A stretch of 64,000 nucleotides of DNA. It comes from Armatimonas rosea. Lineage in GTDB: Bacteria > Armatimonadota > Armatimonadia > Armatimonadales > Armatimonadaceae. Each line of letters starts with the position of its first letter. The first letter of the stretch is position 1. Below, in pieces: positions 10,791 through 63,953 of this stretch. The notes beneath the pieces were generated by a model, which saw nothing but the letters and a program-made list of their open reading frames with translations, made no database searches and had not been told where the DNA came from. Position numbers and translations under genes: made by a program. The stretch spans positions 1 to 64,000 of the forward strand of contig NZ_JACHGW010000010.1 in the NCBI RefSeq assembly GCF_014202505.1, read 5' to 3'.

Positions 10791-10797
10791 CAGCCGG

Positions 10798-10803: not shown

Positions 10804-10814
10804 AATCATAATCG

Positions 10815-11255: not shown

Positions 11256-11320
11256 AAACGATCTACGTCACCTTGCGAGTCGCTTCTGCTACTCGCTGAC
11301 TTCGTTTTCGGAGGCATTTT

Positions 11321-14154: not shown

Positions 14155-14156
14155 CT

Positions 14157-19722: not shown

Positions 19723-19956
19723 ACTCCAAATACGAGACCTTTGCGAGTTAGGTATTAGACAAGTAGACAAAAATACGCAAAAACGTTCGTTTTCATGGTA
19801 CGTCAGATTTTCCAAGAGACGACTCACACTCCCACCGACAGGATCAGCAAAAAGTGTTCACGAAACTAGTATACTAAATCAAAGTACCAAGAGCCTCAAA
19901 AAAAGTGAGTATCGTGGTACAAATGACTTACCAGAACCCAAAGGACACTTCCGACC
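19723..19956 (+). promoter_or_regulatory. Upstream region of the resolvase, possible res site
   Basis: This 234-base gap holds AAAACGTTCGTTTT (about 19783-19796), a palindrome with a TT centre, and a TATACT hexamer at 19870-19875. A resolvase recombination site or autoregulatory site is plausible, but three clear subsites were not found. Confidence 0.3.
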
Positions 19957-20640
19957 ATGCTAATTGGCTACGCTCGCGTCTCGACCACCGACCAGAACCT
20001 CGATCTCCAGCTGGACGCGCTCAAGGCCGCGGGTTGCGAGAAAGTCTTCACGGACACGGCAAGCGGCGGAAAAGCCGAGCGCCCTGGTCTTACCGCCGCT
20101 CTGGAGCTCTGCCGCAAGAAAGACACACTCGTGGTCTGGAAGCTGGATCGGCTCGGGCGCTCCCTGCCGCACTTGGTCGAGACGGTGCGCGATCTGGAAA
20201 GCAAGGGCATAGGCTTCAAGAGCCTCCAGGAGAGCATCGACACCACGACCAGTGGCGGCAAGCTGATCTTTCATATTTTCGCATCTCTGGCCGAGTTTGA
20301 GCGTGACATTATCAAAGAGCGAACGAATGCGGGGCTAGCGGCAGCTCGTGCTCGTGGGCGCACTGGTGGCCGTCCCAAGGGGATCATGGACACCAATAAA
20401 CAGAAGGCGGCACTGGCGCTCAAGAACGACACGAGCCGCTCTGTGGCTGAGATATGCAAGATTCTGGGGGTCTGTCGCAACACCTATTACAAGTACATTC
20501 GTACTGAGGAAGAAGTAGCTCAGAAAACAGAGGCTCGCAGTGGAAAGAGCATAGTTAAGCGTAAAGCGCCTGTGGGGAGGGCGGCGGCTGAGCTACCGCC
20601 AACTCCCAAGAAGGCTGCTTCATCAGAGAGCTATCACTGA
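19957..20640 (+). CDS. Small serine recombinase (resolvase/invertase)
   Basis: A 227-residue serine recombinase beginning MLIGYARVSTTDQNLDLQ, with catalytic Ser9 and the Arg-rich region WKLDRLGRSLPHLVETV. It has HIFASLAEFERDIIKERT and a C-terminal helix-turn-helix (SVAEICKILGVCRNTYYKYI). The last 40 residues, rich in Lys, Ala and Pro, extend beyond the usual 185-residue resolvase. It cuts and rejoins DNA through a covalent serine link and may resolve plasmid multimers or invert a segment. It has its own TATACT element and is not part of the metal operon. Confidence 0.88.
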   Translation: MLIGYARVSTTDQNLDLQLDALKAAGCEKVFTDTASGGKAERPGLTAALELCRKKDTLVVWKLDRLGRSLPHLVETVRDLESKGIGFKSLQESIDTTTSGGKLIFHIFASLAEFERDIIKERTNAGLAAARARGRTGGRPKGIMDTNKQKAALALKNDTSRSVAEICKILGVCRNTYYKYIRTEEEVAQKTEARSGKSIVKRKAPVGRAAAELPPTPKKAASSESYH

Positions 20641-28400: not shown

Positions 28401-28551
28401 TCTCGCGCTCCTGCGCCTCGCCGTCTGGGGCGATGTCGGGGCCGTGGAGTATGATGTAGCCCAGAGCATCGAGCCACTCTAAGGCAGCCTCTTCAACAAC
28501 GGACTCAGTAAAGAATGCCAATTTGTGTGTGTCCTCAGTTCGAGCGAGCAT
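25432..28551 (-). CDS. hsdR: Type I restriction enzyme HsdR subunit
   Basis: A 1039-residue restriction and translocation subunit. The nuclease core shows [20 protein letters not shown] (Asp153, Glu167, Lys169). The SF2 motor has Walker [12 protein letters not shown] (about 308-318), DEAH in [23 protein letters not shown] and [11 protein letters not shown]. It pumps DNA toward the bound complex and cuts when translocation stalls. hsdS and hsdM lie about 2.6 to 6 kb upstream on the same strand, separated by a DUF4365 pair and a DUF488 gene. A GCCCATT/AATGGGC palindrome lies at 28553-28574, directly before the start. Confidence 0.93.
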
Positions 28552-28591
28552 ACGCCCATTATTTCAAAAATGGGCCACGGCGTATAGGTTA

Positions 28592-28597
28592 AGAATA
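28592..28597 (-). promoter_or_regulatory. -10 element upstream of hsdR
   Basis: TATTCT within GGGTATTCTTA on the minus strand, 40 bases before the hsdR start. The same GGGGTATTCTT block stands before hsdM (34800-34805) and before the gene starting at 61354 (61367-61372). hsdR therefore seems to have its own promoter. The palindrome at 28553-28574 falls in the leader and could block the ribosome or bind a regulator. Confidence 0.45.
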
Positions 28598-28675
28598 CCC
28601 TACCCCTTTCCTGCTTTTTACTCCGTTGATCCCAACAGAACCGGCAATTTCTCTGCCAGACTTTGTGAAAAGGGG

Positions 28676-28681
28676 TACAAT
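28676..28681 (+). promoter_or_regulatory. -10 element of a leaderless DUF488 transcript
   Basis: TACAAT ends exactly 6 bases before the GTG at 28688, the spacing expected when transcription starts at the start codon. This supports GTG 28688 over longer or shorter starts. Confidence 0.45.
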
Positions 28682-28687
28682 CGGGGC

Positions 28688-29155
28688 GTGGAATTGATGA
28701 CGATTGGGTATGAGGGCTTGAGCCTGGAGGAGTTTTTCGGGCTCCTGCGCGAAGGCCGCGTGGAGCGGATTGTAGATGTGCGGCAGATGCCTCTCTCTCG
28801 AAAGAAGGGTTTCTCGAAGAACTCGCTCCGCGAAGCAGCTTGTGCGCGTGGCTTTGAGTATATTCATCTCTCCGCGTTTGGCTGCCCCAAGTCCATTCGG
28901 GACACTTACAAAGCGGATGGTGACTGGGCCCGCTACACGCGTTCATTTCTTGCCTATCTGGTGACTCAGCAGGAGCCTCTGCAGCACCTTGCCCAAATTG
29001 CGAGTAGTAAGCGCTGTTGCTTGCTTTGCTTTGAAGCCGATCCTGATACCTGCCACCGGCTCTTTGTTGCCGAGCACGCAGCTCGCAGTTCTGGTGGGCG
29101 GCTTCGTGTGCATCACTTGGGGGCTGCTTTTACAGCTCCAGCACTAGCGGCGTAG
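28688..29155 (+). CDS. DUF488 family protein
   Basis: A 155-residue DUF488 protein. Recognisable pieces are LMTIGYEGLSLEEFF, IVDVRQMPLSRKKGFSKNSL, YIHLSAFGCPKSIR and CCLLCFEADPDTCHRLFVAE, the last carrying the conserved Cys and His cluster of the family. Its biochemical role is not established; members are frequent in defence islands. It runs opposite to all neighbours in the type I locus. The start GTG is chosen from the closely placed -10 box; ATG at 28697 is an alternative. Confidence 0.8.
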   Translation: MELMTIGYEGLSLEEFFGLLREGRVERIVDVRQMPLSRKKGFSKNSLREAACARGFEYIHLSAFGCPKSIRDTYKADGDWARYTRSFLAYLVTQQEPLQHLAQIASSKRCCLLCFEADPDTCHRLFVAEHAARSSGGRLRVHHLGAAFTAPALAA

Positions 29156-29319
29156 CTACGGGAGCTACTTGCTGCCGAGGTGGATAGACGACACTGACAG
29201 TTGGCAAATAATCCCCAATAGGGAATCGCTGGATTCGGTGCTCTAAATTATCTCCGTGGTCTCGGATGCAATCCTCTCCCCATCAGGCTGTAGTCAGTAA
29301 CGAGATGTGTACAAATCTT

Positions 29320-30477
29320 CTACTCTATTTTCTCTATAATGAGGTTTCGCGGGTTGCGTAATTTGAAGCCTGCTGTCTCACGGCTGAGTTCCCCCTCAAC
29401 GGAGAGTATAGCCGTTTGTCTATGCGCCTCTATTGCAAGTTCGTAATCTTGGCCCCAAAGTTCGACAGTGACGCGGCGAAGATATCCTTCCACAACCCCA
29501 TCAATAGTTACCTGTCCAACAGCTGTAGCGTCAGGACGATGTAGCTTTATGACAGGACCGCGTAGTTCGAACGACTCATGAACCGCTCTCTCACGCAGAA
29601 CACGGGCAACCTCACGGAGAATAGGAAGGTGATCCGAAGGGAAATGAATGAAACTCGGTGTTTGAGTAGGCACTTTACGAGTTGGTGACCATGAAAGACT
29701 GATAGAGATATCACGATCATAGTTGTCCAGTGTCAATCCTGCCACTGCATCGCACAGGTTGGCACTTACGCCAGCCTCAGTGGCCCTGAGAAAGCTTTCA
29801 ACTGATCGAGTAGTCAGGGTCTCTGTCAAGGCATTGTGGGTTTCCATGAGCGCCCGTGCAAGGGTCCGAGTAACACGACGCTCAAAAGGATCTGCGGAAT
29901 CGGCGACCTCTACCGAAAGATCAGGAAAAAGCTCTTGTTGTCCACTGTCGAGTTGTGGGGCAACCTCAGATTGCATCGTAAGAATAAAGCTTCCCCGCTC
30001 TGTCTGTCCCATGCGAACCCGTTTGATATACTCAACTGCCTCAGTTGGCTTGCGCCCCGTGTGAATGGTGCGCCTGCGGACTGTAGAGCATGCAGCAGCC
30101 ATCATCATATCTCGAGCGTGACCAATTAGATGCGCTGCTTCTTCTAGAGGTATTGCACCATCTTCAAGGTCGTCACCAGAGAGGCGAATTCGGATCACGT
30201 CTTTAGTCGCTTCATCTATGTCTCTAAGAACTTGCTCCTGTGAGCGCCGCTCTACTCTAGCCAAGACTGCCAAAATGTCAGCAACACCCTCAGCATAATC
30301 GTCTAGCGTACTCGAGTGAGGTAGCACAAGTTTTGATTGATCATCGGGTCCCTGCCAGACAGTTCCCGTGTCAAAATAGCGACTTATATATTTCCAGTTT
30401 CGTGACCCTAGATAGGCTGCGATTTGACTAGTTCCCACTGAAGAAAGCACTTCACGGTCGGTGATTGTAACTTTCAT
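29320..30477 (-). CDS. Unknown protein coupled to DUF4365 in the type I locus
   Basis: A 385-residue soluble protein that I do not recognise. It starts MKVTITDREVLSSVGTSQIAAYL at the ATG overlapping the upstream gene's stop by four bases (ATGA). The N-terminal half is mostly helical, including DDYAEGVADILAVLARVERRSQ and a His-rich helix (HLIGHARDMMMAAACST). The C-terminal third looks like beta strands (VTIDGVVEGYLRRVTVELWGQDYELAIEAH). No membrane segments or nucleotide-binding motifs are seen. Tight coupling to a nuclease-like partner inside a restriction locus suggests a defence or regulatory partner. Confidence 0.7.
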   Translation of the reverse strand: MKVTITDREVLSSVGTSQIAAYLGSRNWKYISRYFDTGTVWQGPDDQSKLVLPHSSTLDDYAEGVADILAVLARVERRSQEQVLRDIDEATKDVIRIRLSGDDLEDGAIPLEEAAHLIGHARDMMMAAACSTVRRRTIHTGRKPTEAVEYIKRVRMGQTERGSFILTMQSEVAPQLDSGQQELFPDLSVEVADSADPFERRVTRTLARALMETHNALTETLTTRSVESFLRATEAGVSANLCDAVAGLTLDNYDRDISISLSWSPTRKVPTQTPSFIHFPSDHLPILREVARVLRERAVHESFELRGPVIKLHRPDATAVGQVTIDGVVEGYLRRVTVELWGQDYELAIEAHRQTAILSVEGELSRETAGFKLRNPRNLIIEKIE

Positions 30478-30983
30478 GGGCGCTGACCTTGGTTTAGACG
30501 TCCCATCAGGTAGCTCAATGAAGCCACATCGAAAATCTGAGCGCGTGGTAGGTAGACTGTCTGGGCAGTCGTATTGGTGCTCGCGGGTTCCCCTTCTAAA
30601 GATTTCCAGTACGCACAATGTCGCATGATTAGCTCATCCTCGGTTTGTGACACCCAGGCTCCTTGGTCTCTTGGGACAGTGACAACAACCAGGATACGAG
30701 GGTGGAGAGTTCTGTTGCTCCGTAGCCTCTGGTAAGTATCAATGTCGAGCGAGTAGACCAAAGCATTATTCTGAAACTTAAAGTCGCTATCACACTTAAC
30801 TTGCAGCGTGAGTTTTGGAAGTGCATCATGTAAGTGTTCATCTATGGCCGATATTTCAAGGTCAATTTTGCAGAAGTCCATCTCCGGTTTGGTCACCTGA
30901 AACCCCGCCGCCGCCGCGACCGCGCGGAGGTACGCATAGCTGAACTGTTCCTGCCACTGGTTTTGCATCAGGCTTAAATTCAC
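30474..30983 (-). CDS. DUF4365-like nuclease-fold protein
   Basis: A 169-residue protein resembling the DUF4365 domain. It opens NQWQEQFSYAYLRAVAAAAGF and contains a predicted PD-(D/E)xK-like core, FCKIDLEIS followed by LTLQVKCDSDF, where Asp and Gln-x-Lys would be catalytic. It ends QIFDVASLSYLMGRLNQGQ. Such domains occur with defence genes. It lies between hsdS and the unknown gene with which it overlaps by four bases. An internal ATG at 30968 is an equally likely start. Confidence 0.65.
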   Translation of the reverse strand: MNLSLMQNQWQEQFSYAYLRAVAAAAGFQVTKPEMDFCKIDLEISAIDEHLHDALPKLTLQVKCDSDFKFQNNALVYSLDIDTYQRLRSNRTLHPRILVVVTVPRDQGAWVSQTEDELIMRHCAYWKSLEGEPASTNTTAQTVYLPRAQIFDVASLSYLMGRLNQGQRP

Positions 30984-31158
30984 AACGGGACTCCCGTTTC
31001 CCTCCCCAAGGCGGAATGCCCCTAGGAATGGACTATGTTAAAGCCTCTCTTCTAGGTGTGGCGAAAGAGGTGTCTTCAGCCCTATAATCCCACTGGAGGC
31101 TCGGCCTTGGACTTAAGTCCTGTGTGCGTTGCCTCCTTCCGTTTTTGTAGCTACCTTC

Positions 31159-32475
31159 TCAGGCGCTCTCCGCTCCCGATGCAAACTCCGCGATCATGTC
31201 CTCAGGAAGTCTAATCTCCCCAGAGATGAGCTTAGGGAGTAGGCCATCACGGAGTTCGTGGAGCTGCTTTGCCTCCAGATTGTTCTGGATAATCTGATCT
31301 ATGATTGGAGCAATCATCCCATCCGCCGCTTTCACTACCGCCGATTCTGGGACAATAACCTTTGCGTCCGCCAAGTGGTGTCGTTGAATATGCCCCATTG
31401 TAGTTGCTTTTGAGGCAGCAATACTTTGGAACTCTGGCAGATGGTATTGCACCCAGCTCAGATAAAACCATTTTGGAAACTCGGCTGACGTTACTTTGAA
31501 CAGGTGCTGATTCAAAGCTCCCTGTCCCCCACACCAAACGGCGACTTCAAGACTGCCTGACCAAGAGAAAAGCACATCGCCATCTTGAACAACATAGGCG
31601 CTAGGTACATCACAGTTGGCCTTATCGCTACCCTCACTATCTCCCTTCCTGAGCTGGGCAATCTTAATCACAGGAAGATCGGTGGTGTCTTCACGCGGTG
31701 GGTATTTTTGGAGCGCAAGCCCATTGAGAAACTCCGCGATTTTATCGAGGGAGCGCACCTCCCATCCTTTCGGAATCATCCCCAGCTCAGACTCCACGAA
31801 CTCCGAGGGAAACAGCGCCGCCATCTCTGCGTCCATCCCCTCGGGCTGGCGGCTTTCGGCTTTGGCGTGAACGGGATCGAAGTCCACGAACCAAGAGCGG
31901 AAGAGAGTGCGGGCCATCTCCTCCAGCGTCTCGTTCATCTGACGGTTGAGTGTAACCTTCCCCTCAATTGCTTCCAGTAGCTCAACGATTTGCCTATTTG
32001 CCTCCGTTAGAGGCGGCACGGGATAGCTGAGGAAATCACCACGACTGAGTGCCACTACCGCACTGCCCGTCGCATGGCCAGCACAATAGCTCCGGTACTG
32101 TGGTGTGCGGAGAATCCAGTAAATGTAGCTCACTGTCTCCTTATCCGCATCACTGAACTCGAGTTTTACGGTGTCTTGAGTTAGACGACCGGATGGAACC
32201 GTGACCGGTACACGTGCCACCGATCCGATCATCTCTCCGTCTTTCGTTGCTCCTTTGAGCGATACAAAGAGATCGCCAGGGGTGAGCATGAGTTTCGGCG
32301 GACAGTCTCCTCCGTAGGTCTTGTAGTCAGATTCCCTAAACCCACCTCCGGGCTGAATTGAGCCGAGCCCTAGTAAGGCAGGGCCTGGCTTTCCTACCAA
32401 CATTCCTTTGTACGTTGTTCCACGCTGAAGGGTAACGTAGTCGCCGATCGTAGTCTTATTACTCATGATCGACAT
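31159..32475 (-). CDS. hsdS: Type I restriction-modification specificity subunit HsdS
   Basis: A 438-residue specificity protein with two target-recognition domains. The first conserved repeat is visible at about 150-200 (YPVPPLTEANRQIVELLEAI, RQMNETLEEMARTLFRSWFVDFDP) and the second at the C-terminus (IIDQIIQNNLEAKQLHELRDGLLPKLISGE). The first domain runs from GDYVTLQRGTTYKG, the second from GWEVRSLDKIAEFLNGL. The two domains each read one half of a split DNA target. An ATG three codons in (32466) may be the real start. Confidence 0.9.
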   Translation of the reverse strand: MSIMSNKTTIGDYVTLQRGTTYKGMLVGKPGPALLGLGSIQPGGGFRESDYKTYGGDCPPKLMLTPGDLFVSLKGATKDGEMIGSVARVPVTVPSGRLTQDTVKLEFSDADKETVSYIYWILRTPQYRSYCAGHATGSAVVALSRGDFLSYPVPPLTEANRQIVELLEAIEGKVTLNRQMNETLEEMARTLFRSWFVDFDPVHAKAESRQPEGMDAEMAALFPSEFVESELGMIPKGWEVRSLDKIAEFLNGLALQKYPPREDTTDLPVIKIAQLRKGDSEGSDKANCDVPSAYVVQDGDVLFSWSGSLEVAVWCGGQGALNQHLFKVTSAEFPKWFYLSWVQYHLPEFQSIAASKATTMGHIQRHHLADAKVIVPESAVVKAADGMIAPIIDQIIQNNLEAKQLHELRDGLLPKLISGEIRLPEDMIAEFASGAESA

Positions 32476-32608
32476 CCTTTGTGTTTGCGGGCGTGACTAG
32501 CGGAATATGAAATTTGTGACATAATTAATTCTGTAATACTTGACGTAGCTTTTGAGCGAAATCGAGTCCGAGCCTTGACTGGGTCGCCTCTGGGCGGCCC
32601 TTTCTTGC

Positions 32609-32944
32609 TTATTCTGCCTCCTCATTGGACTCCCGGTCTTCACTGTCGCTGTCCCACAAATCCCGGTATGCATGGATATAGGAGACTGTTGCCTCGGGAT
32701 CGAGGGGGAAATAGTACCGACACAGACGCTTGTAGAGCACCAGCATTTTGGCGTCATAGCAGAAGTCCAACAGATGATCCAAGGTGTATTCGATCTGGTG
32801 TCGGTCGCGGCACTCGTCACGGATGAGCGTGTTTACTGTGTCAGTGTAGAGAGGAAGGGCTTGGCGAGCCAGAGCTTGGAAGCTTTCTGCATACCCTCGA
32901 AAGACTTCTAGTTCTTCTGATGAAGGGGCGTGTGCTTGGCTCAC
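32609..32944 (-). CDS. Small unknown protein between hsdM and hsdS
   Basis: A 111-residue acidic protein of unknown function starting MSQAHAPSSEELEVFRGYAESF. It is largely helical and ends in an acidic tail (DSDSEDRESNEEAE). It begins 84 bases after hsdM and ends 133 bases before hsdS, so it is in the modification operon. Position and acidity would fit an accessory or antirestriction-type regulator, but nothing in the sequence proves this. A GC-rich hairpin (GGGTCGCC/GGCGGCCC) follows at about 32580-32600. Confidence 0.6.
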   Translation of the reverse strand: MSQAHAPSSEELEVFRGYAESFQALARQALPLYTDTVNTLIRDECRDRHQIEYTLDHLLDFCYDAKMLVLYKRLCRYYFPLDPEATVSYIHAYRDLWDSDSEDRESNEEAE

Positions 32945-33028
32945 CGGTCACTTCCCAGGAAGATCACATGTATAGAAAAGAGCCGTTTCCTTTGCATGTT
33001 TGAGCCGACGTGTAAAGGAAAAGCCGGA

Positions 33029-34771
33029 TTACTTTGCATATCCCATCCTCCGCAGGTTCTCTTGAATCGTCGCCTCCAGCTGATCTGACTTGGCAAACTG
33101 CTCCGTGAGCTTGCCTGCCAGCCGTTGCATCTTCGCATCGAAGGGCTCGGCGTTCTCGTCCACTTCCTCCTCTGCCGCACCGACATAGCGCCCCGGAGTC
33201 AGCACAAAGCCCTGCTTCTCCATCTCCTCGATGGTCGCGCTGAAGCAGAATCCCGGCTCGTTATTGTAGTCTTCGCTGTCCTCCTGCCAAGCGTGGTAGG
33301 TCTTAGCGATCTTCTCGATGTCCGCATCATCCAGCGTCTTGAGCGTTCGATTCTCCATCCGCCCCAGCTTGCGAGCATCAACGAAGAGCGTCTCTCTGGG
33401 GAACTTCTTCTTGCGGCTCAGAAACCACAGACACACAGGGATCTGGGTCGTGAAGAAGAGCTGACCAGGGAGCGCGACAATGCAGTCCACCAAGTCGGCC
33501 TCGATCAGTGCTTTGCGAATCTCCCCCTCCCCTCCTGAGTTGCTGGACATGGAGCCATTCGCTAGAACGAAACCTGCCTTCCCCTTGGGCGAGAGGTGCG
33601 CCACCATGTGTTGAATCCAGGCATAGTTCGCATTCCCGGTCGGCGGGATGCCATACTTCCAGCGCTTATCATCCTTGAGATGCTCCCCACCCCAGTCGGA
33701 GATATTGAAGGGCGGATTGGCGAGAATAAAGTCCGCCTTGAGATCGGGGTGCAGGTCCTGGTGGAACGTGTCGGCATGGGTTGGCCCCAGGTTGTTCTCG
33801 ATGTGCCGGATCGCCAGGTTCATCTTGGCAAGCTTCCAGGTGGTTGCGTTCATCTCCTGACCGTAGACCGAGATGTCGCCCAGCTTCCCGCCGTGGCTCT
33901 CCAGGAACTTCTCGCTCTGCACAAACATTCCGCCTGAGCCGCAACAAGGGTCGTAGATGCGCCCCTTGAAGGGCTGGAGCATCTCCACCAGCAGGCGCAC
34001 GACAGGAGCAGGCGTGTAGAACTCACCACCACGCTTACCTTCAGCCGAGGCAAAGCGCCCGAGGAAATACTCGTAGGCCCACCCGATCAGGTCACCGCGC
34101 TTGCCCTTGCCCTCGGCGTCGTCCTGGCCGATGTTGCCGATCAGGTCCACCATCTCCCCAAGACGGCGCTTGTCTAGCGCGGGCCGGGCGTAGTCCTTGG
34201 GGAGCACTCCCGTAAGGCTTGGGTTCTCACGCTCCAGAGCCACCATCGCCCCGTCGATCACTTCCCCGATTTCAGGTAGTCGTGCTTTGCTGGCAATGAA
34301 GCTCCAGCGCGCCTCCTGCGGCACCCAGAAGATCCCCTCAGAGCTGTACTCGTCGCGCTCCTCGGCGACGTAGGAGCGGCTGGCCTCGTCCTTCACATAC
34401 AGATCGCTCTCCGGGTTGGCAGCTTCTGCCAGCAGCACCGCGTGGCGGCGCTCGAACGCCTCGGAGGTGTGGCGTAGAAAGACCAGCCCCAGCACGACAT
34501 GCTTGTACTCAGCGGCGTCCATGCTCCCGCGCAGCTTGTCCGCCGCGAGCCAGAGCACGGTCTCCAGCGAGGGGGCAGAGCGCTCCTTGTTGCCGTATTT
34601 TCGAGGCGTCCAGGCTTGCACCTCAGCCTCAGAGAGCATCTTCTTGCCATCGACAAGGTACTCCACCAGCTCCTTGCCCTTGATGGCGTTGTAGAGGGCA
34701 GCCGGGGTAACGTCTTTCATCTCGGCGGCTGCCTTGACGGTGATATAGGTGACAGGGTTATAGTCGCTCAT
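33029..34771 (-). CDS. hsdM: Type I DNA methyltransferase HsdM with N-terminal HTH
   Basis: A 580-residue N6-adenine methyltransferase. S-adenosylmethionine motif [16 protein letters not shown] and catalytic motif [15 protein letters not shown] are plain; the helical N-terminal domain characteristic of HsdM begins at [29 protein letters not shown]. Ahead of it is an extra module of about 60 residues ([43 protein letters not shown]) that looks like an excisionase or MerR-type winged helix-turn-helix. Standard HsdM lacks it. TATTCT lies 28 bases before the ATG. Confidence 0.93.
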
Positions 34772-38079: not shown

Positions 38080-38813
38080 TACTTTAAGCGCTTTTTTGCA
38101 ATCTCATAGTAGATATGACTTGCTTCTATGCCGATGTAGCCTAACTGAAGATTTCTTGCTGCTAGTAAGGTAGTTCCAGAGCCAGAGAATGGGTCAACGA
38201 TGATTCCACCCGGCTTTACAATCCGGAGGAGATCCTCCATAAGTGCGAGTGGCTTGCCCGTCATATGGAGCTTCACACCTGGCACCTCAACCCGATAGCG
38301 AAAGACTCCAGGAAGGCTTCCAACGTGCCGCTTTGGAGGGAGCCTACCTTTAGCCCCCCAGACGATGTACTCGGCTTGCGCTGCAAACCTTCCTCTCTGC
38401 GGCCTACAAGCTTCGGTCTTGTCCCAGACCGCGACGCCAAGCCAGCGCCACCCCGCCCATTGCAGGAGTGTAGTCATGAGGGGTAGTTGACGCCAATCTA
38501 TGAAGATCACGATGGGCGCTCCGTCTTTGGCGACCCGCTTACACTCCTTGAGCCAGCGGTATGTCCACTGCGCCCATGCGTTCTGATCCATGCTCTCGCT
38601 TTCAAAGTCCGGCCAAGTCGTTTTCTGGCGGGTCTGAACGTACTTGACTGAGGCAGGTCGTGCTCTTTCGCTTGCAGTGAGCCCTCCTGAGCAGTAAGGC
38701 GGGTCGGTCACAATGGCATCGAAGCTGGCGCTCTCAAGGGTGGCAAGCAGCTCTAGAGCATCTTCATGGTAGAGGATGCCACCCGGAAGCTCTGTTTTAA
38801 CTTCCCCGCTCAT
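38076..38813 (-). CDS. DNA methyltransferase (N4-cytosine/N6-adenine type)
   Basis: A 245-residue beta-class type methyltransferase: catalytic FDAIVTDPPYCSGG near residue 40 and, near the C-terminus, S-adenosylmethionine motif IVDPFSGSGTTLLAA. No restriction partner is adjacent, so it is probably a phage- or plasmid-type solitary enzyme that protects the element. The ATG at 38813 overlaps the stop of the upstream gene (ATGA) and is preferred over the ATG at 38828. Confidence 0.88.
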   Translation of the reverse strand: MSGEVKTELPGGILYHEDALELLATLESASFDAIVTDPPYCSGGLTASERARPASVKYVQTRQKTTWPDFESESMDQNAWAQWTYRWLKECKRVAKDGAPIVIFIDWRQLPLMTTLLQWAGWRWLGVAVWDKTEACRPQRGRFAAQAEYIVWGAKGRLPPKRHVGSLPGVFRYRVEVPGVKLHMTGKPLALMEDLLRIVKPGGIIVDPFSGSGTTLLAARNLQLGYIGIEASHIYYEIAKKRLKY

Positions 38814-39397
38814 TTCTCGATCCCCCAACTCCGGAAAATCCCTCTTCCTTCCTTGCTGGCTCGTGCAAGGTTTGTGCGGATCATGACTTGCAGCTCCGCG
38901 CTAGTAGCTCCCTCCTCAGGCAATTCCCACCACTCGGGCAGCGGCAGACCTGTCTCCCGCCCGACCTTGCAACCCTCTGGCAGCTCTTGTGCTGGCTGGC
39001 TGGTGGCCGTGAGTCTGCTGGTCGGGTCGTCGAGGTACATAGGGCGCTTGCAGGCATCGAGCAGCTTCTGGTAAGCCACCGCCCCCATGTGCCCGGTATC
39101 TATCTCACTACGCCGCCCGAACACGTCCACGCTGTAGAGCTTCTGCCGGGCTGGGAAAACCAACCGGGCCTCGCCCAGCAGCTTCCCCTCTCCTGCGGTC
39201 GAAGAGGAACGGGAGGAGCCAGCCTCCCCAAGGGGGCTGCTCTCCCGTTTCCGATTACCGGAATCTATGTATTTAGTTTCTTTTGTAGTTTCCGATAAAC
39301 GGAAACCGTTCATCGGAAACAGAGAGGTTGTGCTCAAGCCTTGCTGCACCCCATTAAAGCCTTGCCGCCTTTGGCGCTGGTGCTCAGAGAGCGTCAC
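38810..39397 (-). CDS. Replication-associated protein with embedded palindromes
   Basis: A 195-residue protein not recognised by family. The N-terminal coding part holds three copies of GTTTCCGAT in palindromic arrangement (listed separately), which forces the residues around FRLSETTKETKYIDS. The rest is Glu- and Pro-rich with LYSVDVFGRRSEIDTGHMGAVAYQKLLDACKRP. It overlaps the phage-O-like HTH gene upstream by four bases, as if the two were halves of one replication protein. Its function is inferred from this context. Confidence 0.55.
   Translation of the reverse strand: MTLSEHQRQRRQGFNGVQQGLSTTSLFPMNGFRLSETTKETKYIDSGNRKRESSPLGEAGSSRSSSTAGEGKLLGEARLVFPARQKLYSVDVFGRRSEIDTGHMGAVAYQKLLDACKRPMYLDDPTSRLTATSQPAQELPEGCKVGRETGLPLPEWWELPEEGATSAELQVMIRTNLARASKEGRGIFRSWGIEK
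39248..39321. repeat. Origin-like palindrome cluster inside a replication gene
   Basis: GTTTCCGATAAACGG (39289-39303) and CCGTTCATCGGAAAC (39307-39321) are 14/15 inverted repeats around AAA. A third related unit, GTTTCCGATTACCGGAA, lies at 39248-39264, and A+T-rich sequence fills the gap. Repeats inside a gene next to an O-like protein resemble the lambda origin inside gene O. Confidence 0.6.
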
Positions 39398-39783
39398 TGC
39401 TCACCCTCCCCTGTGGGGTATGGGAGCTGCCCGAGCCGGTAGTAAAGCCTGTGGCGAACTCTGCGCCGCTCTTGGGCATTGGTGACGACGCGCCCGTCCT
39501 CGCGCTCGACGACGATCAGGCCATAGCGCACGAGGCTGTCGATGGAGCGGCTTATCGCATCGCCCCCCTTGCCCGTTCGAGCCTTGAGCTGGCTGTGAGA
39601 GAGCCAGTCGCGCTCTTTGCGAGCTGGCGAGCCGCCCTCCTCAAAAACCCAGCCGATAGTCTGACGGATCACGACCAGCAAGACGCGCCACTCAACGTCG
39701 GTGAGGGCGGGCATGACATAGTCGATGTAGATCGCGGGAACTGGCACCACAGGGGTTAATTCATCCCAAGTAGTTCCGCTCAC
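39394..39783 (-). CDS. Phage O-like winged-helix replication protein
   Basis: A 129-residue protein resembling the N-terminal domain of phage replication protein O. It contains ALTDVEWRVLLVVIRQTIGWVF, then WLSHSQLKARTGKGGDAISRSIDSLVRYGLIVVERED, a winged helix that binds origin repeats. It overlaps both neighbours by four bases (ATGA type). The C-terminal helicase-loader half of lambda O is missing here; the next gene may supply other functions. Confidence 0.72.
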   Translation of the reverse strand: MSGTTWDELTPVVPVPAIYIDYVMPALTDVEWRVLLVVIRQTIGWVFEEGGSPARKERDWLSHSQLKARTGKGGDAISRSIDSLVRYGLIVVEREDGRVVTNAQERRRVRHRLYYRLGQLPYPTGEGEQ

Positions 39784-40526
39784 GCTCCACCCCTTCTTCG
39801 CGCTTCAGGTGAGTCATAGGTGCCTCGGATCGCCGCGACAATGAATCGGGCGGGGTTTCTCGCCCCACGCTCGGGTAGCCAAGCGAGCTGCTGCTCGATG
39901 CTCTCTAGCTCGTACTCGCCCACAAGCTCCCGAGCATCCGGCTCAGGCACCCCAATTTTCAGCAAGGCGCGGTAAGCGTCGCCATGCCTGCCTGGTGGGG
40001 GCGATTCTTCGGGAATGGTGCCAAGTTGCTCGGCGACGATGGCCTCAGCCTCAGAGATGGGGGTAGCGTAGCGCTCACGTGAGAGGGCGATGAGCTGCTC
40101 TTTGGATGCAGTCTTGTAGCTCCGCTCACTTTGAGGTGACTGGGGCACCTCATTGATGGGCACGCCTACCCGCTTGGAGAGGCCGTAGCCTTGCTCTCCA
40201 TGTACAAAAGTCGTCTCGTAGATCATGGGAGCACCATCGAAGGTATAGCCTGCCAGTGTCTGAAGCAGTGCGGCGGCCTGGTCGCTGTGGAGCCTTAGCG
40301 CATCTGCCACTTGGGCGACACTGGCGCGAACCTCGCCGCCGCCCTCCTGAAAGGTCAGAAGGGCGATAAAGACTTGTAGCAGGTCTGCGGGGAAGATGTG
40401 TAAGAGCCCCGACAGCCGTAAGTTGGGAGAGAGCACAACTTGCGGCGCGAGCCCTACTCGATGCTGTAGCTGAAACAGCGCTATCTCTGGGTTTCCTGGG
40501 GTGGCGTAGAGAGGGAGGGGGTTCAT
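39780..40526 (-). CDS. Replication-initiator-like protein
   Basis: A 248-residue protein. The N-terminal half has a winged-helix-like segment (EVRASVAQVADALRLHSDQAAALLQTLAGY). The C-terminal part, LLKIGVPEPDARELVGEYELESIEQQLAWLPERGARNPARFIVAAIRGTY, resembles the C-terminal segment of the replication protein at 62850 (EAGVGKLVAQKLAS...QLDYLPF...GAYLRTAIEQGF). I infer a plasmid- or phage-type replication factor. Its ATG shares one base with the preceding stop (TGATG). Confidence 0.62.
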   Translation of the reverse strand: MNPLPLYATPGNPEIALFQLQHRVGLAPQVVLSPNLRLSGLLHIFPADLLQVFIALLTFQEGGGEVRASVAQVADALRLHSDQAAALLQTLAGYTFDGAPMIYETTFVHGEQGYGLSKRVGVPINEVPQSPQSERSYKTASKEQLIALSRERYATPISEAEAIVAEQLGTIPEESPPPGRHGDAYRALLKIGVPEPDARELVGEYELESIEQQLAWLPERGARNPARFIVAAIRGTYDSPEARRRGGA

Positions 40527-51098: not shown

Positions 51099-52808
51099 AT
51101 GAATCAAACAGCAGCAATTATATGTCGAGTTAGTTCAAAAGAACAAGAAGATGGTTATAGTCTCGATGCCCAAGAGCATCTCTTGCGTGATTTTAGTACA
51201 AAACGAGGCTTTGATGTACCACTCATGTTAAGACTTTCGGAGACAGCATCAAAACATCTACGCCGAAAGAAGTTCAAGGCATTCATGGATGAGGTCAATA
51301 GGACTAAAATCCAGCACATTGTGGTCGAGAAGGTAGATCGCCTGACTCGCTCAGGATTAAAAGAGGGGGTAATGATCGATGACTGGCTTGAGACCGATGC
51401 AAATCGCCACCTCCACTGCGTAAAGGATGGTATCGATCTGCACAAATTCTCCCGATCAGGAGACAAACTTAACTGGGGAATGCGCGTCGTCCTTGCAAAG
51501 AACTACACTGACAATCTGCGCGAGGAAATACGCAAATCTACTGATGCCATGCTCAGACAAGGGATCTGGCCTAACAAGACCCCCATCGGCTATATCCGCA
51601 ATAAAGCAAACCCCAGAAGCCCTATTCAACTAGACCCTGTGAGGGCTCCCTTGATTGCTCAGATGTTCTCTCTTTATGACACGGGGGAGTGGTCTGTTCA
51701 GCGCCTATCAGAGCACCTTTATAAAGAAGGGCTCAGAACAAAGATGGATCGCCAGATTTACTCAAGCCACATTCATCTCATGCTCAAGGATCCTTTCTAC
51801 GTCGGAAAGATGTTATTTGAGGGCAAGCTTTGGGAGGGTGTTCATCCTCCAATCGTGTCCCACGAGTTGTTTGACCGAGTACAGCGCAGGATCAATCGCC
51901 CTAACATGGGAGTGGGTGCAACCCTAAAGCAGCGCCACGACCATCTCTATCGCGGCCTCGTCTTTTGCTCAGGGTGTGGAAAACGCCTAACTTGGGAAAT
52001 CCAAAAAGGACACACATATGGCTATTGTCGGCAGAAAAAGAGCTGTACAGAGCGAGCCTCTATTCGTGAGGATGCTCTCGATTCAGAGCTGCTACCTTAT
52101 CTAGATGCTTTTACTTTGACAACTCCAAAGATGGCCGAATGGCTACGTATTGCACTAAAAGCAGCACACCAAGATGAGCGATCACGACATGAGGAAAGCC
52201 GAGAAGAACTCGAGCGATTGCTCTCTAAGGCCGATCAACGGCTGAGCCGTCTACTCGATATGCGAATCGATGATTCGATCACCGAGCAAGACTTTGATCG
52301 CAAAAAACACGAGATCTCCCACGATAAAGAACTCATTATCGAACGTCTTAGCAACGTCTCTGAGAGGCAGATGGGCTTTATGGATGACATATCAACCTTG
52401 ATTAGCCTGACGCAAAACTGCGCCATACAGTTTTCTCAAGCATCACCAGACAGAAAGCGAACAGTTCTACGAAAAATGTTTTCCAGTGTAAGCATTTCCC
52501 CAATGGGAACGGTTGTTGAGTATACGGAACTATTTAGTAACCTGTTAGATGTAATACAGGATATAAAAAGTTCGAAAACCTTATTTTCACCCCAAAATAA
52601 AATTATAGATTTCGAACCGGAAGAAATTAGCTCTGAGAAAGAAAAAAAGGACAACCTAGACCTAGGTCATCCCTTTTGGCTGAGGATGAGGGATGAGTTT
52701 CGAACTTTTACCAATGAATCTACCAATTGGAAAAAATTAGTTACTAATATTCTTTGTATTTCTCAAAAAGATATAGACTCAGTATTTTTAGATTTTCATG
52801 AACTTTAA
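51099..52808 (+). CDS. Large serine recombinase (phage-type integrase)
   Basis: A 569-residue serine integrase. The catalytic domain opens AAIICRVSSKEQEDGYSLDAQ (Ser12), with VEKVDRLTRSGLKEG. The recombinase domain has IWPNKTPIGYIRN and HIHLMLKDPFYVGKMLFEGK, and a zinc ribbon follows (FCSGCGKRLTWE, GYCRQKKSC), then a long coiled coil (EESREELERLLSKADQRLSRLL). It integrates and, with a partner, excises an element between att sites. The A+T-rich upstream region or the gap at 52809-52857 could hold attP. The adjacent CHAT gene converges on it. Confidence 0.92.
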   Translation: MNQTAAIICRVSSKEQEDGYSLDAQEHLLRDFSTKRGFDVPLMLRLSETASKHLRRKKFKAFMDEVNRTKIQHIVVEKVDRLTRSGLKEGVMIDDWLETDANRHLHCVKDGIDLHKFSRSGDKLNWGMRVVLAKNYTDNLREEIRKSTDAMLRQGIWPNKTPIGYIRNKANPRSPIQLDPVRAPLIAQMFSLYDTGEWSVQRLSEHLYKEGLRTKMDRQIYSSHIHLMLKDPFYVGKMLFEGKLWEGVHPPIVSHELFDRVQRRINRPNMGVGATLKQRHDHLYRGLVFCSGCGKRLTWEIQKGHTYGYCRQKKSCTERASIREDALDSELLPYLDAFTLTTPKMAEWLRIALKAAHQDERSRHEESREELERLLSKADQRLSRLLDMRIDDSITEQDFDRKKHEISHDKELIIERLSNVSERQMGFMDDISTLISLTQNCAIQFSQASPDRKRTVLRKMFSSVSISPMGTVVEYTELFSNLLDVIQDIKSSKTLFSPQNKIIDFEPEEISSEKEKKDNLDLGHPFWLRMRDEFRTFTNESTNWKKLVTNILCISQKDIDSVFLDFHEL

Positions 52809-52857
52809 TTATCCACATACAAATCATTTCAATATAAAAATATCACATTTTTTAATA

Positions 52858-54978
52858 TCAATTAATAAAATTCATCGTAATTTTCTCTGGCCAACCTATC
52901 ATTATATAAAAAAGTGTTTCCGGAGCATAACCTGGCCTCGACAGCCAAGCATTAACTTTATCTAATGTTTTATTTTCAACTGCAATCTCTTTCAGAACTG
53001 TAATTGTATCATTATATATATGTGCATTACGTAATCTCCCCACAGAGCGCTCCTGAGTAAAAAGTTCCAATATAGATTTACCTTCATGCTTCATCGAAGC
53101 CCATTGAGAAATTCCTGTACTACTAAATAAAATATCATTAACTGCATTTGAAGTCGTTACATGATGCCAGATTTCTGCAAAATTTTTCATTGAATTCTTA
53201 CCTGACATTGTTTCATTGATATACACAAACAAGCGATTAATCAGAATGGCATTATGTCTTATGTCTACAGGTACTAATGTTCCAATAACTGCTAATGCAC
53301 CTTGTCGCATTAGTAAATCTGCAATATTAACAGCTCCAATACCACGAGGTGCAACATTACAAGCACTTAATATCACTAAAGGAGGCATGTCGCCTAAATC
53401 ATCGCCCATACAAAAATCTTTTCCAATCATTATTCCGGCACTATTACTCTCTTGAGCATAATGTCCATGTGCACTTATGATCAGTACATTAGGATCATAT
53501 TCACTCAACAGTGAAGCAACATCTGATGATGATTCAGCTTCCACATAAATAATTTTTATATTTGCGTTATTAGCATATTCTTTCGCAATATGTTTCCATA
53601 TACTTCTTGATAACTTTCCAATACGATCACTTTCACTTATACACTCGACAATCAGAATTGAAATTGTTTCACTCCATTCAATATATGGAGGATTTAGTAA
53701 TTCTACCTGCAATGCTCTTGTGAGTGGCAATATGGGACGGTATGCTATAGGAACACGACAGCAATAGGGAGATGTATCACCAGGTAAGATTGCCAATCCT
53801 AGAGGAAAATTAGAAAAAATATTTACAAAAGATGCACGTTTTAGAGTATCCACCGATTCTTCATCAAATAAACTAGCAGCTGAATTTCCCATATCATTTA
53901 TCCAACGCCACACATGTCTACGTTTTGTCAATGAAGAATCTAAATATTGCTTTTCAATATTATTCAATTTCTTAAAAAGAGTATTTGGAATATCCATAGT
54001 CGATATTACAGTTCCATTACGTGCTATTGCACGGTGAGTCGCAATAAAATTTATAATTGCATTTTCTATCTTACTATCATCAAACTTTTCAACATCATTC
54101 CAAGTTAATAATGGATCCAAAAACAGATTACTACGCGTTAATACCGTTCCATCTTCATATATGCTATCAATATATAACGATGGAACACCCGGAGCGACGA
54201 TACTGAGTGGAAGTTTTAAAGATCGAGACTCATGCTCGATGAATTCACCGATTGCCTCTTCTGCTTCCACTACACTCATCTCAGCATCTTCACAGCGTGC
54301 AATGGCCGCAACTGCGATATGGTTATCTATAACTATGTTTTTGAGATTTTTTATTTCTTCAATACCGTTTGGTTCAACTAACATATCCTGTTTAAGTCGG
54401 CGTCTCAAAATGTTATTAGTCAGTAAAATTGGTGCAATATCTAGACGGTTTATAAAGCCAAAATTCATATCTAGAAAATCTGATTCATAATTCATATTTT
54501 TATGAATTTCTTTCCAAATATCAGTAATTTTTCCCGGATTTAATTCAGAATTCTGAATTACAAATACTCCATTACCAATCTCTTCGGCCAGTTTTTTTGC
54601 TGAATCAACTAAATAATCGGGACAAAAAATAGTAACAGGAACAAACTCGGAATCATAAAACTTAATAATTTTATTTGCTTCAGCAATTAGAGTTAGAGGC
54701 ATCAAAATAATCTGATGAGCAATATTCGCTTCTTTAAAAGAAATAATGTGTCTCGCCTGCAGATCAATTAAATCAAAAAATGAAGCCGGTAAATGAAGGC
54801 AGTACCATATAGACTTTATACACGAAACTAATTCTTTAGATAATCCATGTGGCACTGTTATCGAGCTTATGCTTTCCCTAACCTCTTCGCGAGATATATA
54901 TGGCATATATACATCTCTTTTATTTTTAAAATCATCAAATAAAACAACATACATCGGATTTTTTTTATTCATAACCAT
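52858..54978 (-). CDS. CHAT-domain caspase-like protease
   Basis: A roughly 706-residue protein whose C-terminal 250 residues form a CHAT protease: catalytic His in NVLIISAHGHYAQES (about 503) and Cys in LVILSACNVAPRGI (about 538), followed by DLLMRQGALAVIGTL. The N-terminal 400 residues have no family that I recognise and may sense or bind a partner. CHAT proteases act in immunity when a trigger activates cleavage of a target. No usual partner (TPR regulator, gasdermin) is next to it. The gene is A+T-rich. Start at ATG 54978, with AAAGAGA upstream. Confidence 0.82.
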   Translation of the reverse strand: MVMNKKNPMYVVLFDDFKNKRDVYMPYISREEVRESISSITVPHGLSKELVSCIKSIWYCLHLPASFFDLIDLQARHIISFKEANIAHQIILMPLTLIAEANKIIKFYDSEFVPVTIFCPDYLVDSAKKLAEEIGNGVFVIQNSELNPGKITDIWKEIHKNMNYESDFLDMNFGFINRLDIAPILLTNNILRRRLKQDMLVEPNGIEEIKNLKNIVIDNHIAVAAIARCEDAEMSVVEAEEAIGEFIEHESRSLKLPLSIVAPGVPSLYIDSIYEDGTVLTRSNLFLDPLLTWNDVEKFDDSKIENAIINFIATHRAIARNGTVISTMDIPNTLFKKLNNIEKQYLDSSLTKRRHVWRWINDMGNSAASLFDEESVDTLKRASFVNIFSNFPLGLAILPGDTSPYCCRVPIAYRPILPLTRALQVELLNPPYIEWSETISILIVECISESDRIGKLSRSIWKHIAKEYANNANIKIIYVEAESSSDVASLLSEYDPNVLIISAHGHYAQESNSAGIMIGKDFCMGDDLGDMPPLVILSACNVAPRGIGAVNIADLLMRQGALAVIGTLVPVDIRHNAILINRLFVYINETMSGKNSMKNFAEIWHHVTTSNAVNDILFSSTGISQWASMKHEGKSILELFTQERSVGRLRNAHIYNDTITVLKEIAVENKTLDKVNAWLSRPGYAPETLFYIMIGWPEKITMNFIN

Positions 54979-55066
54979 TACCAATCTCTTTCACTTCATG
55001 CCCAGTTTAGCCGCTCGATTCCATATTTTGGATCAATGGAAACGGACAATATAAAAACGGAGTCGC

Positions 55067-61514: not shown

Positions 61515-62393
61515 GTGTACCTAGAGTTTTTTGGACTGACGGAGGCACCGTTCTCCGTACAGCCTGATCCAAAGTTTGCCTATCCGAGTCAGGAGCACAA
61601 AATCGCCATCGCCAAGATGCGCTACGCTGCTGACCAGAAGCGCGGTCTCGCGGTTCTGACTGGTCCTGTCGGCGCAGGTAAGACAACCGTGGCAAATCAG
61701 CTCCTCGTGACTTGGGAAGAGGACAAGGCCAAGACTGTGGCTTTTCTCCCTGCCGCCTCGATGCGTACCCCAGCAGCGTTTTTGCGAGCAGTTCTGGAGG
61801 CGTTCGATCAGAAGCCAACCCGGACAGCAGCAGACAACCAGCGCTTCCTCGAGCTCTTCCTGCTCTCCGAATATAAAGAAGGGCGTCACTGCGTTCTACT
61901 ACTGGACGAAGGGCAGAACGTCTCCCCAGACAACATTGACACCATCGCCGAGCTTACCAACTTCCAGACTGCCAAGAGCAAGCTCATAACGATTGTCATG
62001 CTTGCCCAGGACAATCTCCCCAACAAGTTGGAGCGCAAAGAGGCCTTCCGCTCGCGTATCGCTGTTGTTGGTCACCTCGATCCCCTCTCTTTTGAGGACA
62101 TGTGTGGCATGATCTCTCACCGCCTGAAAACCGCTGGCGGGGACAAGATCAACAAGTACTTCAATGAGGAGGCTCTCCACGAAATCTACGCCACCACACG
62201 AGGAATCCCCAGAGACATCTGCGTTCTCTGTGATGCCTGCATGGTGAACAGCTACGTGAGTAATCAGCGTGTAGCGAATGCAGCTCTGGTAGAGCAATCC
62301 GTCAATGAGATGGCGCGTGAGAAGCGCTGGCCGGTTGAGATCAAGGAAGAAAGCAAAGCCCCCAAGGGCAAGTCAAAGGGAGCTAAGGCATGA
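61515..62393 (+). CDS. ExeA/TniB-like AAA+ ATPase
   Basis: A 292-residue AAA+ ATPase: MYLEFFGLTEAPFSVQPDPKFAYPSQEHKIAI, Walker A LTGPVGAGKTTVANQLL, Walker B CVLLLDEGQNVSPDNIDTI, and SKLITIVMLAQ. The opening FFGLTEAPFS is shared by ExeA/GspA and by MSH- or transposon-type loaders. Here it is coupled (ATGA) to a ribbon-helix-helix protein and followed by a replication protein, so it probably replaces ParA as partition motor or loads the replication machinery. GTG start with GAAAGGAAGG upstream. Confidence 0.82.
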   Translation: MYLEFFGLTEAPFSVQPDPKFAYPSQEHKIAIAKMRYAADQKRGLAVLTGPVGAGKTTVANQLLVTWEEDKAKTVAFLPAASMRTPAAFLRAVLEAFDQKPTRTAADNQRFLELFLLSEYKEGRHCVLLLDEGQNVSPDNIDTIAELTNFQTAKSKLITIVMLAQDNLPNKLERKEAFRSRIAVVGHLDPLSFEDMCGMISHRLKTAGGDKINKYFNEEALHEIYATTRGIPRDICVLCDACMVNSYVSNQRVANAALVEQSVNEMAREKRWPVEIKEESKAPKGKSKGAKA

Positions 62394-62839
62394 GCACACT
62401 AGCAGATCTACGCCGTCAAAATATCGCTGAACAAAAGGGTGAAGCTGAGCCCCTTCCCGCAGATGCGGAAGCACGTACTTCCGCACTTACGCAATCAAGC
62501 GCTGGAGCAGAACCTCTTGAAGAATCCGTATCTACGGAAATCCGTAAATCCGCAAGCACGCAAGCAAGTAAGGACGTGCGCACGGGAGCAAGGAAGCAAG
62601 CACCTAAGCAAGTACGCGCCCAAGCACTTGAGGGCGCACCTACGGGCGGACTTACTGAAGTAGTACGTGAAGCGCTAGAGATGAAACGCAACCATCCTGG
62701 TGGGGTGAAAGCGACAGTGGATATGTCACCCGAGCTCTCCAAAAGAGCGAAGAAATACTGCCTGGAGCATGATGTTAGCTCCGTGCGCGTTCTTTGCTTG
62801 GAGCTGCTCGATGCCTTCCTCACTGACGAGGGATTCTGA
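62390..62839 (+). CDS. Ribbon-helix-helix-type partition protein with repeat-rich 5' half
   Basis: A 149-residue protein. The last 45 residues resemble a ribbon-helix-helix DNA-binding domain (VKATVDMSPELSKRAKKYCLEHDVSSVRVLCLELLDAFL). The first 100 residues are low-complexity (Ala, Ser, Thr, Glu, Lys), and their DNA, 62461-62660, is full of CGGAAGCACGTAC, CCGTAAATCCGC and GCAAGCAAGTA-type repeats. The gene may therefore carry its own binding site, as in small ParB-type proteins. It overlaps the ATPase gene by four bases and precedes the replication gene by 10. Confidence 0.65.
   Translation: MSTLADLRRQNIAEQKGEAEPLPADAEARTSALTQSSAGAEPLEESVSTEIRKSASTQASKDVRTGARKQAPKQVRAQALEGAPTGGLTEVVREALEMKRNHPGGVKATVDMSPELSKRAKKYCLEHDVSSVRVLCLELLDAFLTDEGF
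62461..62554. repeat. Centromere-like repeats inside the RHH gene
   Basis: AGATGCGGAAGC (62461-62472) and CGTAAATCCGCA (62543-62554) recur exactly at 50692-50703 and 50665-50676. CGGAAGCACGTACTTCCG (62466-62483) is a palindrome. AATCCGTATCTACG at 62523-62536 recurs with one mismatch at 50669-50682. Further CAAGCAAGTA-like units continue to about 62640. Repeats within a partition gene suggest a binding site for its own product. Confidence 0.55.
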
Positions 62840-62849: not shown

Positions 62850-63953
62850 ATGGAGCCAGATGCCGAAATAGGAATGATCTTAGACCTTCTCATTGGAGAG
62901 GGTGTTGTGGCGTACCAGCGTGGCCTAGCACGGGCTGTTGGTTGCCATTCGGCAGGGCTCCTGCTGTCCCAGTTCTGGTACTGGACACAGCGACTTCCTG
63001 AGGGGCGAGATGGCTGGTTCCACAAGACCATGCCTGAGATTGAGCAGGAGACCGTCATGGGGCGGCGTGAGCAAGATACCGCTCGCAAGAAGCTGCGCGA
63101 TCTGGGACTTCTTGAGGAAAAACGGATGGGCCAGCCAGCAAAGCTCTGGTTCCGCTTGAACCGAAAAGCTGTCGTCGAGCTCCTTCGCAAAGATGTTCGA
63201 GAGCGTCGTGAGCAGATGAGTTTACAGGACTCCCTGCAATCAGATCTTCAGTTTGGCGCTTTCCGCCAAACTAGATTGGCGGAAAGCGCCAAACTAGATT
63301 GTACGAATGCGCCAAACAAGATTGGCGGAAAGCGCCAAACTATTAAGGATACAAAGAATACAGCAAAGAGTACAACAAAGAATACAGCAACAACAACCAG
63401 GCGCGAGCTGGAAAGCGAAGGGCTTTTTGCTGCTGTCATTTCTGAGGAGAGAGAAGGGAAGGCACTCAACAGCAACCCTATAGAGCCTCCTGACGAGGCA
63501 CTCGTAACCCGTCTTGTCGAGGCGGGAGTAGGGAAGCTCGTAGCACAAAAACTTGCTAGTGAACGCCCTGAGGAGTGTAAGCAGCAGCTCGACTATTTGC
63601 CATTTGCTGAGAATATTAAGTCTACCAAGGGAGCCTATCTACGCACTGCCATCGAGCAGGGGTTCAGCCCACCTAAACGTTGGCAGGAGGATCAGGAGCA
63701 CCAGCGCCAAGAAGCCAGCAAGCAGGCAAGAAAATTGGAAGCACAGCGCCAGGGTGAGCTGGAGGCAAAGCGAAAGGCGGAACTGGAGGAGCAACGAAAT
63801 AAGGTACGGACACAAGACCCAGAGCGCTGGGCGGAGTTGACGAGTCAGGCTGAGGCATTGTTGCCAGCGCTCGTCCGCTCTAAGCCGCAGAGTGCCATGT
63901 ATCAAGCCTCGCTCCAAACGAAGATAAACGAGCTGCTGACAGCGAGGACATAG
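62850..63953 (+). CDS. Replication initiator-like protein with embedded origin repeats
   Basis: A 367-residue protein. The N-terminal 110 residues form a winged-helix domain (LARAVGCHSAGLLLSQFWYWTQRLPEG, MPEIEQETVMGRREQDTARKKLRDLGLLEEKRMGQPAKLWF). The middle encodes palindromic repeats (63252-63342). The C-terminal part resembles that of the protein at 39780, then a Lys/Glu-rich coiled coil follows (RKLEAQRQGELEAKRKAELEEQRNKV). I infer a plasmid-type initiator with an internal origin. Start chosen at ATG 62850, with GAGG upstream; 62811 is possible. Confidence 0.72.
   Translation: MEPDAEIGMILDLLIGEGVVAYQRGLARAVGCHSAGLLLSQFWYWTQRLPEGRDGWFHKTMPEIEQETVMGRREQDTARKKLRDLGLLEEKRMGQPAKLWFRLNRKAVVELLRKDVRERREQMSLQDSLQSDLQFGAFRQTRLAESAKLDCTNAPNKIGGKRQTIKDTKNTAKSTTKNTATTTRRELESEGLFAAVISEEREGKALNSNPIEPPDEALVTRLVEAGVGKLVAQKLASERPEECKQQLDYLPFAENIKSTKGAYLRTAIEQGFSPPKRWQEDQEHQRQEASKQARKLEAQRQGELEAKRKAELEEQRNKVRTQDPERWAELTSQAEALLPALVRSKPQSAMYQASLQTKINELLTART
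63252..63342. repeat. Palindromic repeats inside the replication gene (origin candidate)
   Basis: TTTGGCGCTTTCCGCCAA (63252-63269) and its exact reverse complement TTGGCGGAAAGCGCCAAA (63276-63293) flank a 6-base spacer. A second copy of the latter is at 63322-63339; with the flanking AGA and CTA it is a 24-bp direct repeat spaced by 46 bp. A half unit GCGCCAAACAAGA lies between (63309-63321). Each unit is TTGGCG-GAAAG-CGCCAA. Confidence 0.75.

Follow-up and report, generated by a model that had tools for sequence, protein, structure and literature searches.

Gene 62850-63953 on the forward strand of the window (the whole 64,000-nucleotide stretch that was analysed) most probably encodes a theta-type plasmid initiator with its origin inside the coding sequence, in which an iteron array would serve for binding, A+T-rich DNA for opening and a C-terminal domain for replisome recruitment. 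What was observed, and enters this reading, is the anatomy of the gene, the conservation of its repeats at the DNA level in relatives, the predicted fold of its protein and the circular replicon that holds it, while iteron binding, unwinding, helicase recruitment and origin activity are what we infer by analogy with lambda O and the RepA_N initiators. In the proposed mechanism, the N-terminal winged helix, probably dimeric, would bind the four palindromic iterons spaced by 23 bp; the nucleoprotein complex would open the A+T-rich 12-bp repeats at 63339-63391; and the helical C-terminal domain may recruit the host DnaB or DnaG, either directly or via the AAA ATPase of the operon. The plan of an intragenic origin is already known, and what distinguishes this gene is the joining of a phage-type front end to a C-terminus shared with other initiators of the phylum. 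If correct, the reading would extend the lambda-type plan of an origin inside its initiator to a plasmid from a phylum that has been little studied.

Anatomy of the gene, its protein and its repeat array

The start codon at 62850 and the stop at 63953 were confirmed for the initiator ORF (367 aa), the longest version of which would begin at 62769; it is the third gene of a tight three-gene operon. Pfam and NCBIfam scans gave no family name for the protein, and no sequence match was obtained to PDB chains or to Pfam RepA_N (PF06970). By PHROGs profile search, phrog_9773 'replication initiation O-like' matched aa 19-190 with an E value of 2.1e-28, and a full-length homologue of 47% identity was found in the same phylum. 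The profile alignment ended at position 160 of 288, leaving the C-terminal half of phrog_9773 unmatched, and lambda O covers the opposite half of the profile (positions 149-274). The phage and plasmid relatives aligned with aa 4-165 only. No match to PF04492 was seen at E up to 1 (lambda O itself, 5.7e-36), nor any to phrog_277 or phrog_2357, which were used to test for a lambda-type C-terminus and P loader. Judged from sequence, it is through the N-terminus alone that the protein belongs to the phrog_9773 O-like group. A back-translated search for close relatives gave one spurious 60-aa ORF (L004) from the genome contigs and none from the viral contigs.

An N-terminal winged-helix DNA-binding domain was predicted at about aa 17-112 (62898-63185, + strand) and is kept in all relatives; in the AlphaFold model its pLDDT is mostly >90 and its elements run in the order H-H-E-H-H-E-E. 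The nearest solved folds were 4pql, 4pt7, 5kbj and 4pta (Z 8.4-9.9), which we take to be N-terminal domains of RepA_N plasmid Rep proteins, and other winged helices tie with them, unrelated ones falling within 1 Z of the top match (Z 9.9, rmsd 4.1 over 108 residues). Residues 157-214, part of the repeat-encoded linker, were modelled as disordered, and the C-terminus as helical. The AlphaFold model and the relatives therefore both support the layout originally proposed, namely a winged helix, a repeat-encoded linker and a C-terminal domain.

Four 17-bp units were located within the gene in an exact 23-bp register, with starts at 63253, 63276, 63299 and 63322. Three are perfect 6-5-6 palindromes matching TTGGCGGAAAGCGCCAA, at 63253-63269 (-), 63276-63292 (+) and 63322-63338 (+), and the first of these departs from the other two only in its asymmetric 5-bp centre, which is opposite (CTTTC vs GAAAG). 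Iteron 3 (63299-63315, +) is the half-degenerate TTGTACGAATGCGCCAA, in which the right arm alone is retained, and phage relatives show the same half-unit at the equivalent position. The repeats that had been described as one inverted pair and one direct pair 46 bp apart are therefore real, but they make up a single four-unit array rather than two pairs. Even with up to 3 mismatches allowed, the 64-kb window contained no further match to TTGGCGGAAAGCGCCAA (expectation 0.18; 3 reached in 0 of 100 shuffles), and the only exact TTGGCGNAAAGCGCCAA matches in the 6.3-Mb genome were these three, the reversed control pattern giving 0. Codon shuffles of the gene produced duplicated 12-mers in 139 of 2000 cases, so the case for an intragenic array rests on the exact 17-mers and the relatives and not on short repeats. 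The iterons encode the linker between the winged helix and the C-terminus of the initiator.

Directly after the iterons lies an A+T-rich stretch (63339-63391, + strand) with three 12-bp repeats, presumed from its base composition to be the DNA-unwinding element. It is 68% A+T compared with 46% for the gene as a whole, whose most A+T-rich 45-mers (71% A+T) begin at 63337-63341, and the 12-bp repeat is located at 63351-63390; relatives also carry A+T-rich 12-bp repeats after their iterons. These features bear on the reading that the palindromes are operators for autorepression of the operon and that the origin lies elsewhere. Autoregulation is common among winged-helix proteins, and ordinary regulators are among the best-matching folds; however, the array sits some 400 bp into the third gene, far from the beginning of the operon, the A+T-rich 12-bp repeats come after it here as in the relatives, and those relatives are named replication initiators, which makes the operator reading highly improbable.

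The preferred reading of an intragenic origin was compared with two known systems. Gene O of lambda contains four 6-5-6 dyad iterons and an adjacent A+T-rich stretch (PMC6022878, PMC3349717), and lambda O, fetched as a comparator, showed both at the equivalent place in the gene. The likeness to lambda O and ori-lambda thus extends to a winged-helix N-terminus, four dyad iterons encoding the linker and A+T-rich DNA directly after them, whereas the iteron sequence differs, the period is exactly 23 bp here and 20-24 bp in lambda, the N-terminus here lacks PF04492, the C-terminus is unrelated by sequence and no P-type loader gene adjoins. Those proteins of the window that were scanned included no recognisable homologue of DnaB, DnaC or lambda P. 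In the RepA_N family, the winged-helix N-terminal domain of pSK41 Rep binds four boxes central in its own gene (PMC5703833). The present gene resembles that arrangement in having four putative sites centrally placed, and the solved folds of that family are nearest, but there is no sequence match and the fold likeness is tied with that of general winged helices.

Conservation of the array in phage and plasmid relatives

The phrog_9773 comparison set comprised Synechococcus phage Ssp-JY37, a Marinobacter plasmid, and Vibrio and Acinetobacter phages, which share with the present gene the same winged helix, the 23-bp array (often with an identical palindrome) and the A+T-rich 12-bp repeats; the C-termini of these phages and phage-plasmids, in contrast, are lambda-O-like or of other phage types. 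When relatives were read codon by codon, TGGCGGAAAGCGCCA units and, after them, ATTACAGAG-type repeats were found to encode the same central stretch, MAESAKLDCTNAP ... GGKRQTI-EITTETT.

A scan at the DNA level alone, with the bare 15-bp palindrome against 2.9 million viral contigs, returned at least 120 loci. Among the matches listed, the palindrome fell inside an O-like winged-helix ORF at 32 loci, and 11 of the 13 loci with at least two copies had them within such ORFs, which make up 2.6% of the bases; the reversed pattern, run as a control on the viral contigs, matched at 65 loci, of which 0 lay in an O-like ORF. All 50 exact copies within O-like ORFs, again among the matches listed, lay on the strand of the gene and 0 on the opposite one, unlike the present array, in which one iteron has the opposite centre. 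Since 23 is not divisible by 3, adjacent copies are read in different frames, and the palindrome DNA is translated as either MAESAK or GGKRQ. That the viral copies all lie on the gene's strand and yield different peptides in the two frames indicates that selection acts on the DNA and not on the peptide.

The 23-bp period was also measured without reference to a particular sequence. In a set of 38 distinct relatives, self-match just after the winged helix had its highest mean at lag 23 (0.444), other lags giving mostly 0.22-0.33 and lag 23 further downstream 0.272; lag 23 was the best lag in 32 of the 38, and the signal exceeded codon shuffles at p<0.05 in 34. When relatives were picked by protein alone, 14 of 17 showed the 23-bp signal after the winged helix, and the remaining three (L024, L028 and L029) gave no significant signal. 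The nearest full-length homologue (L169/L186), the one of 47% identity mentioned above, has a different iteron sequence at the equal place and with the same 23-bp period. The original prediction had looked to other family members with repeats at the same place, and to homologues lacking repeats but replicating from elsewhere as evidence against it; relatives that carry repeats at the same place were what was found, so the expected counter-evidence did not emerge. Together with the phrog_9773 match and the array itself, these relatives support the proposal of an initiator gene with internal iterons.

The same comparison addresses the idea that a mobile or structural element, such as a REP-like hairpin, a MITE or an mRNA structure, accounts for the repeats and sits in the gene by chance. 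Each unit could in principle fold into a hairpin as RNA or as single-stranded DNA, but the iterons of L169 drift in sequence and yet keep their period; we consider a chance element barely credible. REP, MITE and mRNA-hairpin candidates were rejected, because all three genomic copies lie in the gene and because the repeats hold a fixed place after the winged helix and a fixed period in phages.

Under the preferred reading of iterons that serve an origin, the 23-bp period, the 6-5-6 palindrome and the adjacent A+T-rich 12-mers form a testable DNA signature, which could locate origins in phages and plasmids whose replication genes are labelled hypothetical. The literature that was searched, with partial coverage, contained no description of this 23-bp iteron family. 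The most regular array seen was in a viral O-like gene of L048 (reverse ORF 6691-7966), where about seven 23-bp iterons follow one another and five of these copy the palindrome exactly.

The C-terminal domain and the second module

The helical C-terminal domain (about aa 212-336; 63483-63857, + strand) is common to other initiators of the phylum and to the protein encoded at 39780-40526. Its matches include the C-termini of Phage_rep_O (PF04492)- and RPA (PF10134)-type initiators of the host phylum, which share this domain but differ in their DNA-binding domains, whereas in the Marinobacter relative, which carries the same iterons, the C-terminus is of the lambda type, unlike that of the present protein. 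At a further locus, L009, a different winged helix precedes the same C-terminus, and four repeats spaced 44, 23 and 23 bp, together with 12-bp repeats, lie between the two domains. These domain matches indicate that one constant front end occurs with different C-termini, and that one C-terminus occurs with at least three DNA-binding types. As far as sequence comparison goes, the unusual C-terminal partner is what sets this initiator apart from its lambda-type relatives. Within the phylum, 77 of 291 genomes gave a match to a profile of the domain, partly in short ORFs, so the C-terminal part may be a more general domain; tblastn of the C-terminus against plasmid records gave none at E 0.1. As a side observation, a 60-residue C-terminal motif, GVxxxxAxxLa..eecrrQLeyLp..pgalLvkAIreg..pP, occurs four times in this genome, including 39780-40526 (-) of the window, G000:C9:46670-46882 and G000:C2:996819-997007, and is present in the 77 of 291 genomes just mentioned, also in short ORFs of about 95-170 aa.

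In RepA_N initiators, the C-terminal domain is conserved within genera, and its genus-specific character has been interpreted as host adaptation (PMC5703833). We tentatively propose, at somewhat less than even confidence, that the winged helix and its own site array form a portable 'origin cassette' that moves between phages and plasmids of different phyla and is fused each time to a C-terminus suited to the host. If so, replacement of the C-terminus alone would retarget an intragenic origin to new replication machinery, and C-terminus swaps on a constant binding and iteron cassette would offer a direct route to studying how initiators adapt to the host replisome.

The second module, at 38.8-40.5 kb, had been predicted to parallel this gene in layout and to encode a related C-terminus. 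The relation of the C-termini was borne out, since a C-terminal profile built without the 39780-40526 protein matched it at E 7.8e-8. The layout is not the same: rather than one protein, the module consists of three overlapping ORFs in a different order, all on the - strand. The 248-aa protein with the related C-terminus (39780-40526, identified by profile matches) sits upstream of a separate 129-aa phage-O-type winged-helix protein (39394-39783; phrog_678 E 7.7e-13, and PF04492 E 9.5e-6, just short of the cut-off), and the third is a 195-aa ORF (38810-39397) with two or three weak 6-5-6 palindromes at 39247-39320. The repeats of this module are only suggestive, because TTCCGN5CGGAA at up to 1 mismatch was found 2 times in the window against 2.2 expected. 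The module could be the initiator in use on the replicon.

Operon and replicon context

The first gene of the apparent operon (61515-62393, +) encodes an AAA_22 (ExeA/TIGR03015-like) ATPase, with PF13401 at E 1e-18 and TIGR03015, the XrtA/PEP-CTERM ATPase model, at E 9.8e-57, which is below the cut-off of that model. From its place in the operon it is possibly a partner of the initiator, such as a helicase loader or a partition protein. The second gene (62390-62839, +) encodes a small protein for which no family was found in Pfam, PHROGs or NCBIfam, and its position would be like that of a ParB-type partner. In L009 the initiator gene is immediately preceded by that of an ATPase homologue, and the place matching the upstream operon genes is taken in L186 by a ParA ATPase plus a small ORF; a plasmid maintenance operon therefore fits.

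Contig C10, which contains the window, is 65,150 bp long, and both its ends are 38-bp GGGG...TAAG inverted repeats with the transposon side outward. These Tn3-family ends (window 1-95 and C10:65056-65150) are flanked on both sides by the same 5 bp, ATAGT, and the matching duplication indicates that C10 is a circular replicon; the simplest reading of its sequence is a single circle, about 69 kb in size, that includes one copy of the transposon. Contig C17 (4,220 bp) carries the Tn3 transposase (PF01526, E 2.4e-132) and both transposon ends. Tn3-family ends were likewise found on C14 (C14:1-94 and C14:29311-29405, with the 5-bp duplication CTGTG), so that C10 and C14 look like separate circular plasmids, each interrupted by the same 4.2-kb transposon (C17); C13 and C18 carry more Tn3-type ends, unpaired. 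C10 also encodes a coupling-protein-like ATPase and a Replic_Relax protein.

Since C10 is a circular replicon, the two initiator modules lie on one plasmid, which is ordinary in that 11% of staphylococcal theta plasmids carry two rep genes (PMC5703833). The further step from two modules to a fusion of two replicons, as originally suggested, is compatible with an intragenic origin and possible. The presence of two modules with related C-termini on one circle speaks for it, yet no junction or separate parental replicons were found, and it fits equally well that a second rep cassette was acquired or that the C-terminal module was duplicated; we regard fusion as a history to be doubted more than believed.

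The second module also raises the alternative that gene 62850-63953 is part of an inactive module left over from a second plasmid or an integrated phage, with replication proceeding from 38.8-40.5 kb. The phage type of the winged helix and iterons would agree with this, and inactive second rep genes have been described on other plasmids (PMC5703833). The ORF, however, is intact and its iterons are perfect copies, the gene stands third in a tight operon for which a relative has parA and a small ORF at the matching place, and the window yielded no phage structural genes. A remnant is therefore an unlikely explanation, and the gene is better read as a plasmid initiator.

Other cargo of the window was noted in passing. 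A cyclic-nucleotide-binding domain fused to a CAP12/Pycsar TIR effector (2129-3043, -), a PNP/NB-ARC protein (5137-7962), a type I restriction system (25432-34771) and Mrr-like nucleases make the plasmid rich in defence genes. A large serine recombinase beside a CHAT-domain protein (51099-54984) lies in DNA of about 33% G+C, far under its surroundings, and this stretch is probably a recent insertion. Finally, a heavy-metal efflux set (OEP, HlyD, an ACR_tran pump and a P-type ATPase) is encoded together with a resolvase at 10005-20640.
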